From: Hufsiella arboris
Lineage (GTDB): Bacteria; Bacteroidota; Bacteroidia; Sphingobacteriales; Sphingobacteriaceae
Length of the DNA stretch: 64,000 bases
Assembly (NCBI RefSeq): GCF_009834875.1
Contig: NZ_WVHT01000001.1
Span: 310,001-374,000, forward strand
Direction: 5' to 3'
Shown piece by piece: positions 26,855-29,516 of the stretch. Each line of letters begins with the position of its first letter. Positions within the stretch are counted from its first letter, which is position 1. Both the position numbers and the translations under genes were made by a program. The notes under the pieces are model-generated. The model did not search any database, had not been told where the DNA came from, and saw only the letters and a list, made by a program, of their open reading frames with translations.

Positions 26855-26862
26855 TATTTTTG
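26855..26862 (+). promoter_or_regulatory. Promoter -7 box TATTTTTG for the riboswitch transcript
   Basis: A perfect TAnnTTTG that ends 9 nt before the first conserved riboswitch bases, placing the transcription start just before the aptamer. Confidence 0.65.
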
Positions 26863-26871
26863 CACATCAAT

Positions 26872-27064
26872 AAGGGGTGCCTTGTTTGTTAAGATCAGAC
26901 CATGCTAGCTAAAAATCTGCTTCAAACACAAAAACAGGCTGAGATTATACCCATCATTGAGTTGAAAGAGAAAGGTTCATAGTTGTAAGATTTACTTGCA
27001 ACTAACCACTTGATACTTGCAACTTCAATGAGCACCTGATCCGGATAATGCCGGCGTAGGGAGG
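26872..27064 (+). promoter_or_regulatory. TPP riboswitch (THI element) with enlarged arms
   Basis: The conserved blocks appear in order: AGGGGTGCC (26873-26881), GGCTGAGATTATACCC (26938-26952), and CACCTGATCCGGATAATGCC then GGCGTAGGGA (27033-27061). These are the hallmarks of the thiamine-pyrophosphate aptamer. The P3-type arm is long (TTGTTTG pairing CAAACACAA). An extra arm of about 80 nt sits between ATACCC and ACCTGATC, where most members have only a few bases. The region 27062-27128 is the likely expression platform and can form AGTTAA/TTAACT and CTGCATGCAG hairpins. It controls the TonB receptor starting at 27129. Confidence 0.93.
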
Positions 27065-27128
27065 TAAAAGTTAACGGATCTGCACGTTCCCCTGCATGCA
27101 GCATGTTTAACTAAGTATTCATTTTAAC

Positions 27129-29516
27129 GTGAAAAAATTTTCATTAGCCGTCCTTTGGATCATGCTTTTGCCATTCCTTGCACTGGCGCAATTTTCAGTA
27201 ACCGGAAAAATTTCGGCGAAACTCACCAAGCAGCCCTTAGCAGGCGCAAGTATTTCACTTTCAAACATTGGAAGAACCCAAACCGGCCCTGATGGATCGT
27301 TTCATTTTGAAAACATCAAGGAGGGTCGATATCAGTTGCAAGTGTCCTATCTTGGTTATAAAACCAATACACAAACCATTGAGCTGACCAGGAATACAGA
27401 ACTCGATTTGTCACTTGAACCTGCTTCTTTAATTACTGATGAAGTTATTGTAAGTGCAACACGAGCCGGAAAAAACTCTGCCACTACGTATACGAACCTG
27501 GATAAAGCAACGATTGAAAAATATAACCAGGGACAAGATCTTCCTTACATACTCAACCAAACGCCATCCGTTGTCGTGTCATCCGATGCCGGAGCCGGCG
27601 TTGGTTATACCGGTATCCGGATACGCGGCAGTGATCCGACCAGAACCAACGTGACCGTCAATGGAATCCCATTTAACGATGCAGAAAGCCAGGGAAGTTT
27701 TTTTGTAGACGTACCCGATTTTGCTTCATCAATTGACAACATCCAGGTGCAGCGCGGCGTTGGTACTTCCACTAATGGTGCGGGCGCTTTCGGAGCGAGC
27801 ATCAACATCCAGACAAATACCCGCCATGACAGTGCTTATGCTGAATTAAACAATACTTACGGTTCGTATGATACCTGGAAAAATACGGTAAACGTCGGCA
27901 CGGGATTGATCAATGGAAAATTCACGGTAGACGGCCGTTTGTCGCGAATTAAGTCTGAGGGCTATATCGATCGCGCTTCTTCTGATCTTAAATCATACTT
28001 TTTAAGCGGCGCATGGTACGGTAAAAACGACCTTTTGAGAGCCAATGTGTTTTCTGGCTACGAAAAAACTTACCAGGCATGGAATGGCGTGCCTGAGACG
28101 TTATTACAAACTGATCGAACTTATAACGGCTTCACGTATAATGACCAGACCGATAACTACTGGCAGGATCATTACCAGCTGCTATACTCTCACACTTTTT
28201 CAACGAAGTTCTTCGCTAACGCGGCCATTCATTACACCTATGGCCGGGGTTATTATGAGGAATACAAAGACGATCAGAATTTTGCAGATTATGGCCTCCT
28301 GCCGGCAGTTGTCAATGGCGAAACGATCGACGCAACAAACCTCATCAGACGCCGTTGGCTTGACAATGATTTTTATGGAGCGACTTACTCTTTTAATTAC
28401 AATCCTTCCAAAAACTTGAATTTTACGTTAGGTGGTGCGTGGAACGAATATGATGGAAAGCACTACGGACAGGTTATCTGGTCGCAATATCCATCCCCAA
28501 CCAACGAGGGAAATGAAAATTCAAATGCCGATCACTATTACGACGGACACGGCTATAAGAAGGATTTCAATACTTATTTAAAAGCCAGCTATACGTTTGG
28601 TGCTGCAACTATTTTTGGCGACCTGCAATACCGCAATTTAAATTATATCATCAATGGTCTTGACAAAAACCGAAATCCGCTTGACCAGCGACATAATTTA
28701 AATTTCTTCAATCCAAAAGTCGGGTTTAGTTATCAGCTGAATGATGCAAACAATGTTTACGCGTCATACGCTGTTGCACACAAAGAACCAAATCGGGATG
28801 ATTACATAAACAATAACACCGCGGAGACGAATCCAAAGCCTGAAAAATTGCAGGATATTGAAGTCGGCTATCGTCACAATCAATCAAATTTTAACGCCGG
28901 TGTCAATGCTTACGGGATGTTTTACAAAGATCAGCTGATTTTAACCGGCAGAATTAACGACGTGGGAGAATCAATTCGTCAAAATGTTCCATCGAGTTAC
29001 CGTATTGGTTTGGAAGCAGATCTCAGATGGAAACCTTTTCGCAATTTTACGTGGGCTGCTACTGCCTCGCTAAGTAAGAATAAAATTAAAACGTTTACTG
29101 AATTTATTCCCAATTACGACGATGGCAGCCAGACTGAGAATATTTATAAAGATCCGGACATTGCCTATTCGCCAAACTTTATCGCTTCCAGCGAACTGAC
29201 ATATCAATTATTAAAACACGCCGATTTAAGCTTCATTAGCAAGTATGTTGGCGACCAATATCTTGACAATACAGAAAACGAAGCCCGAAAATTGCAATCG
29301 TTTTTTGTTAACGACTGTCGGTTAAGATACAATCTTGGCGTAAAAGGGATAAAAAATATCGGCCTTTCGCTGCTTGTAAACAATGTATTCGGAGAACTTT
29401 ATGAATCAAACGGATACTCGTTCAGTTATATTTATGCTGGCGCACAAGCGACTGAAAACTATTACTTTCCACAAGCAACACGCAATTTTCTATTGTCGTT
29501 AAATTTGAAATTTTAA
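27129..29516 (+). CDS. TonB-dependent receptor, TPP-riboswitch controlled (probable thiamine-type uptake)
   Basis: The 795-residue outer-membrane receptor has a signal peptide (LAVLWIMLLPFLALAQ), a carboxypeptidase-regulatory-like domain (about 20-105: SVTGKISAKLTKQPLAGASI), a plug domain (about 115-225: RIRGSDPTRTNVTVNGIPFNDAES, GVGTSTNGAGAFGASINI) and a 22-strand-type barrel ending SLNLKF. Translation starts at GTG. The TPP riboswitch directly upstream is the best clue to substrate: thiamine, its phosphates or a precursor. Riboswitch-linked receptors of this type are known in Bacteroidota. No thiamine enzyme or inner-membrane transporter follows, so the receptor stands alone in its unit. 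Confidence 0.93.
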   Translation: MKKFSLAVLWIMLLPFLALAQFSVTGKISAKLTKQPLAGASISLSNIGRTQTGPDGSFHFENIKEGRYQLQVSYLGYKTNTQTIELTRNTELDLSLEPASLITDEVIVSATRAGKNSATTYTNLDKATIEKYNQGQDLPYILNQTPSVVVSSDAGAGVGYTGIRIRGSDPTRTNVTVNGIPFNDAESQGSFFVDVPDFASSIDNIQVQRGVGTSTNGAGAFGASINIQTNTRHDSAYAELNNTYGSYDTWKNTVNVGTGLINGKFTVDGRLSRIKSEGYIDRASSDLKSYFLSGAWYGKNDLLRANVFSGYEKTYQAWNGVPETLLQTDRTYNGFTYNDQTDNYWQDHYQLLYSHTFSTKFFANAAIHYTYGRGYYEEYKDDQNFADYGLLPAVVNGETIDATNLIRRRWLDNDFYGATYSFNYNPSKNLNFTLGGAWNEYDGKHYGQVIWSQYPSPTNEGNENSNADHYYDGHGYKKDFNTYLKASYTFGAATIFGDLQYRNLNYIINGLDKNRNPLDQRHNLNFFNPKVGFSYQLNDANNVYASYAVAHKEPNRDDYINNNTAETNPKPEKLQDIEVGYRHNQSNFNAGVNAYGMFYKDQLILTGRINDVGESIRQNVPSSYRIGLEADLRWKPFRNFTWAATASLSKNKIKTFTEFIPNYDDGSQTENIYKDPDIAYSPNFIASSELTYQLLKHADLSFISKYVGDQYLDNTENEARKLQSFFVNDCRLRYNLGVKGIKNIGLSLLVNNVFGELYESNGYSFSYIYAGAQATENYYFPQATRNFLLSLNLKF

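Follow-up and report, generated by a model that had tools for sequence, protein, structure and literature searches.

Immediately upstream of a gene for a TonB-dependent receptor, the window (the whole 64,000-nucleotide stretch of Hufsiella arboris DNA that was analysed) carries a leader that is best read as a variant TPP riboswitch of the class Bacteroidia, placed ahead of the gene for a vitamin-B1 (thiamin) outer-membrane receptor. The features of the locus, with P2, P3 and J3-2 assigned from the sequence, are as follows.

26855..26862, forward strand: Bacteroidota -7 promoter box TATTTTTG, with the predicted leader start a few bases downstream
26874..26878, forward strand: P2 5' strand GGGGU, part of the TPP consensus core, partner ACCC at 26949-26952
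26879..26939, forward strand: P3 arm, GCCU/AGGC and GUUUG/CAAAC with an extra tip hairpin
26896-26899/26916-26919, forward strand: P3 tip hairpin CAGA/UCUG with the conserved loop AUGCUAGCUAAA
26940..26944, forward strand: J3-2 UGAGA, the TPP pyrimidine-binding loop
26949..26952, forward strand: P2 3' strand ACCC
26953..27033, forward strand: extra J2-4 arm, a long hairpin of 81 nt with 7-nt periodicity
26954..26964, forward strand: 5' strand of the arm's closing helix (UCAUUGA-GUUG), partner 27020-27031
26981..26989, forward strand: 5' strand of the nested stem, AGUUGUAAG (in DNA AGTTGTAAG), partner CTTGCAACT at 26995-27003, pairing probability at least 0.99
26994..27003, forward strand: ACTTGCAACT copy 1, partner in the nested stem
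27015..27024, forward strand: ACTTGCAACT copy 2, no competitor for the nested strand, its CAAC lying in the outer helix
27034..27062, forward strand: P4-P5, the pyrophosphate-binding half, ACCUGAUC CGG AUAAUG CCGG CGUAGGGA, conserved core
27069..27112, forward strand: putative expression platform, AGUUAA 27069-27074/UUAACU 27107-27112 with inner CUGCA 27080-27084/UGCAG 27097-27101
27129..29516, forward strand: TonB-dependent receptor with a carboxypeptidase-like N-terminal domain and a GTG start (PF00593, PF07715, PF13715)

Of 98 receptor leaders from the family Sphingobacteriaceae, 97 have a TAnnTTTG box whose end lies 10-21 nt (mostly 11-12) upstream of P2; in shuffles the figure is 3.7%. 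The receptor is assigned to the same orthologue class as the outer-membrane thiamin receptor under TPP control, a class with a single match in each of 241 of the 251 family genomes. The portion of Costliow and Degnan (2017, PMC5613172) used here places TPP riboswitches of B. thetaiotaomicron at OMthi (BT2390) and pnuT, and the Hufsiella riboswitches sit at the same gene types, a TonB-dependent thiamin receptor and PnuT; by analogy with those loci, the window receptor probably takes up thiamin. The genome has only one other TPP match (locus L002), ahead of a PnuC-family transporter, and that riboswitch likewise bears an arm in J2-4, of 76 nt. Upstream of it lies a cluster of matches to Flavo-1 RNA (RF01705; L002 positions 1906-1981, 2050-2145 and 2311-2397), two of which pass the gathering score while the third narrowly misses it.

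TPP riboswitches are the most widespread riboswitch class, and their aptamer is regarded as well defined, with crystal structures for those of E. coli thiM and Arabidopsis thiC. In the window the TPP-type aptamer spans 26874-27062, with UGAGA, P2, P3, P4 and P5 all intact; it has the P2 of the class (GGGU/ACCC, 26875-26878/26949-26952) and its P4-P5 core pattern (ACCUGAUC-GG-AUAAUG-CC-GCGUAGGGA, 27034-27062). RF00059 is by far the best Rfam family for the leader (37.4 bits, E 7e-6 to 2e-5), although the score falls short of the gathering score of 54.3 bits, which is a curated search threshold and not a structural feature, and a scan of the whole window at gathering level returned no RNA family. 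The match obtained at E-value level was threaded wrongly, with arm bases taken as P1. The low score is thus explained by a model that has no J2-4 helix and by the threading of P1 into the arm, and across the family RF00059 matches 144 of 151 genomes but exceeds the cut-off in only 83. The identification of a TPP riboswitch in an earlier, sequence-only reading of this DNA stands. The leader resembles the TPP riboswitch (THI element, RF00059) in its UGAGA loop, P2, P3, P4-P5 core and downstream thiamin transport gene, and differs from it in the J2-4 helix, the lack of a recognisable P1 and the sub-threshold score; we class it as a variant rather than a standard member because no P1 helix was found.

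The tip hairpin of P3 (26896-26919) has a conserved loop, AUGCUAGCU(A/C)A, which contains the self-complementary GCUAGC, on a stem that varies by species. A loop of this type occurs in nine receptor leaders, including those of the same-genus relative and of Pseudopedobacter, and could act as a dimerising or kissing loop.

J2-4, bounded by ATACCC (ending at 26952) and ACCTGATC (starting at 27034), measures 81 nt where the RF00059 consensus and arm-less relatives have 5 nt (in the relatives mostly UUUGA). The insert folds at -26.6 kcal/mol (z = -4.2), with none of 200 shuffles as good, and CATTGA-GTTG (26955-26964) pairs with CAAC (27020-27023) and TCAATG (27025-27030). The large closed arm, its closing helix and nested stem, and the coordinates and 21-bp spacing of ACTTGCAACT are all as the sequence-only reading described them. 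So too is the repeat character of the arm. ACTTGCAACT, with a chance expectation of 0.14 occurrences in the window, is found twice, exactly, within it. The 21-bp spacing reflects a 7-nt period of the long arms, of which 21 bp makes three repeats: lag-7 self-identity averages about 0.45 in arms against 0.27 when shuffled (0.446 for the window arm, 0.464 for the L002 arm), and the period is restricted to long arms (0.454 at 75 nt or more, 0.263 below 50 nt).

We examined the arm in relatives by anchoring each one on the two conserved flanking blocks, so that no alignment was fitted and a pair is simply base i with base -(i+1). For pairs 3-8 of the 91 non-redundant arms, canonical pairing holds in 85.9% of cells (0.859), whereas permuting the 3' halves among species gives 0.448 +- 0.020 with a maximum of 0.509 in 500 permutations; the set was thinned by shared 6-mers and without a tree, so these permutation figures are indicative, but the effect is large. 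Slipping the register causes a sharp loss, to 43-50%. At pairs 3 and 4, 96% of arms have canonical bases, and four and six standard kinds of pair occur there. The register of the helix is fixed across leaders as AU, helix, (A/U)GC. Homologous arms are also stable (mean z -3.5, with 89% below -2); their lengths span 16-97 nt and their forms run from AU-rich imperfect hairpins to GC-rich palindromes, and no shared motif or conserved loop was found among them. At the level of sequence, these comparisons show a closing helix maintained by compensatory change while the sequence and length of the arm turn over. The sequence-only reading had proposed comparing the arm in relatives, with plain variable filler lacking conserved pairing as the outcome that would count against it; the sequence is indeed variable, but the pairing is strongly conserved.

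The arm is also widespread. It is present in all 30 orthologous receptor leaders chosen by protein similarity and not by the arm (27-97 nt; called by script in 28 and by reading the sequence in two). A strict core pattern applied to 251 family genomes found inserts of 60-90 nt in 82, 30-60 nt in 43 and 91-121 nt in 18, and the reversed pattern gave zero matches; almost all named matches with an arm are Sphingobacteriaceae. In a sample of the class, 65 of 395 genomes, representing 32 of 197 genera, have 15-45 nt inserts, and the short-arm leaders that were fetched have the same receptor type or PnuT downstream. Inserts of 60-90 nt were not found outside the family, one spurious hit aside: this candidate, with a 62-nt insert (G408), was dropped on inspection for want of a TPP-like core. 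The J2-4 slot is no recent insertion; it dates back at least as far as the family, with shorter forms across the class. The earlier suggestion of a recent insertion applies at most to the present sequence of the arm.

Within the family, what distinguishes arm-bearing from arm-less leaders, besides the arm, is P1. In the family's arm-less TPP leaders, J2-4 is 5 nt long and a perfect 5-bp P1 is present in 27 of 27, a sample drawn from the top-scoring RF00059 matches and thereby biased toward standard forms; where genes were read beside them, these were of the hydroxyethylthiazole-kinase type or associated with thiC. In the family's arm-bearing receptor leaders, P1 positions pair at 0.58 against 0.51 when permuted, which is nothing above chance, and a search of these leaders in other registers likewise gave nothing above permutation, although the apparent absence could still reflect a P1 in an unusual register. 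Outside the family, a partial P1 accompanies arms shorter than 28 nt (0.77 over 4 pairs), compared with 0.58 for longer arms, so the arm and the loss of P1 do not go strictly together. The pattern nonetheless suggests that the arm takes over the part of P1 at the junction. We favour, with a probability of about 0.6, a TPP riboswitch variant whose sequence-free J2-4 helix probably serves as a junction scaffold in P1's place. The arm would be a passive scaffold, organising the P2/P4 junction as P1 otherwise does. If any stably closed hairpin suffices for this, the slot would tolerate and collect repeats, and its fillers would be 7-nt repeat hairpins in the window and in Pedobacter and REP-like palindromes in Mucilaginibacter.

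The alternative that we take most seriously, while considering it unlikely, is that the arm is a neutral, tolerated insertion: J2-4 would be permissive, hairpins would persist there since long inserts left unpaired would interfere with folding, and the arm itself would have no function. The complete turnover of arm sequence and length is what such an insertion would show, as are the REP-like elements in the Mucilaginibacter slot and a repeat-expansion period seen in long arms and not in short ones. However, neutrality sits poorly with an arm that is present in every one of the 30 receptor leaders and in none of the family's arm-less set with its 5-nt J2-4 and intact P1, with the conserved register and flanks, and with the co-occurrence of the arm and P1 absence.

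The material occupying the slot differs between genera. Mucilaginibacter-type arms (loci L062, L063, L065, L067 and L068) consist of a GC-rich, dispersed, REP-like palindrome, CCCCCTTCAGGGGGCCGGGGGGC, with 62 matches in one genome (G135) and 22, 21, 12 and 3 in four further genomes, the genus of the palindrome-bearing genomes being inferred from named loci; it has zero matches in the window's genome and in the Pedobacter genomes tried. These arms match many near-identical dispersed palindromes, as REP/BIME-type elements do, whereas the window's own genome contains no dispersed copies of its arm. As a candidate REP or other dispersed repeat the window arm was rejected, its only full-length 100% match being itself and the others covering 14-32 bp with E of at least 0.19. 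In Pedobacter, each genome contains a few partial relatives of its heptad arms, and heptad hairpins are rare in the window's genome (a few in 464 kb). One heptad-repeat hairpin lies in the S10 ribosomal operon, between apparent rplP and rpmC genes (L089, about 1478-1550; G000:C23:225927-225974).

Ten Pedobacter-type genomes carry two arm-bearing riboswitches each, one linked to the receptor and one to thiD (identified by PF08543), at loci L196/L197, L199/L200, L205-L210, L212-L215, L217-L219, L268, L221 and L139. Arms of the two riboswitches are more alike within a genome (0.843) than between permuted partners (0.710, p = 5e-5; ten genomes, their relatedness uncontrolled), while no effect of this kind is seen in the flanks on either side (0.642 within, 0.639 permuted). 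Two genomes, G217 and G247, have a different type of sequence in both arms. Compared between genomes, receptor leaders agree at 93% in their flanks but at only 72% in their arms. The simplest account of these concerted arms would be gene conversion by way of the conserved aptamer blocks, although parallel change could also have produced them. A fuller version of the scaffold reading, in which P1 has been abandoned, a sequence-free J2-4 helix organises the aptamer, and the slot accepts mobile or expanding repeats that are homogenised between paralogues of the same genome, is tentative. If it is true, genomic repeats (REP palindromes and heptad hairpins) would be working parts of a riboswitch.

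A third possibility, that the arm binds a factor in trans (a protein, an RNA or a hairpin-processing enzyme) for which shape and length matter and sequence does not, seems to us improbable: long stable hairpins in many species and similar heptad hairpins elsewhere in the genome, such as that in the rplP-rpmC gap, are in its favour, but a partner would have to accommodate arms of 16-97 nt, from AU-rich imperfect hairpins to GC-rich palindromes, that have no motif in common. Lastly, the proposals of the sequence-only reading that the nested strand can pair with either ACTTGCAACT copy, giving two alternative folds in a rigid aptamer, or that the arm is a second sensing module, draw on the exact copies 21 bp apart and are very improbable, since the partition function gives pairing probabilities of about 0.99 or more for copy 1 and about 0 for copy 2, forcing the copy-2 pairing costs 12 kcal/mol, such repeats are missing from the same-genus relative (L052/L297) and other homologues, and the 91 non-redundant arms share the closing helix only, with neither a conserved loop nor the conserved sequence that a sensing module needs.

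How the aptamer might control the receptor is suggested by the region that follows it. The leaders share an AGUUAA-stem-(C)CCCU loop-stem-UUAACU arrangement, read by eye, which ends shortly before the start codon; in the window its CCCCU loop (27089-27093) is complementary to AGGGG (26873-26877) in the P2 strand, and CCC is found in the platform region of 98 of 101 receptor leaders, compared with 24% in shuffles. RNAalifold on a MAFFT alignment of the downstream region, which was gappy, returned no structure, and minimum free energy folding of the whole leader did not recover the aptamer fold. From this complementarity an AGGGG/CCCCU switch is plausible, in which the empty aptamer would free AGGGG to pair with the CCCCU loop, and TPP binding would control the CCCCU hairpin and through it translation of the receptor. 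In the portion of the B. thetaiotaomicron study used here, thiamine left the mRNA of the OMthi and pnuT loci unchanged, which fits control of translation, and the authors call the riboswitch mechanism in Bacteroidetes uncertain (PMC5613172); RNA architecture is not among the subjects of that portion.

A known elaboration of the class is the optional P3a stem, described by Barrick and Breaker (2007, PMC2258182) and located where P2 meets P3. Like P3a, the arm is an additional stem-loop on a TPP aptamer; unlike P3a, it lies between the 3' strand of P2 and the 5' strand of P4. P3a is the sole such stem in the part of that paper used here, and RF00059 has no J2-4 helix. A literature search on J2-4 inserts, REP elements in riboswitches and riboswitch gene conversion, covering mostly freely readable papers with the early THI-element surveys outside its range, found nothing relevant. 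The J2-4 helix thus appears to be a new TPP variant, of which an earlier mention may exist.

With a covarying helix outside the consensus, many thiamin-uptake riboswitches of Bacteroidota fall below the Rfam cut-off and go unannotated. The two architectures, P1 or arm, amount to a natural experiment on the requirements of the junction. The arms also provide a case of repeat elements inside a functional RNA, and one of concerted change at two loci that the flanks do not share. Finally, for the mechanism of TPP riboswitches in Bacteroidota, described as uncertain in the part of PMC5613172 used here, the conserved CCCCU hairpin provides a candidate that can be tested.
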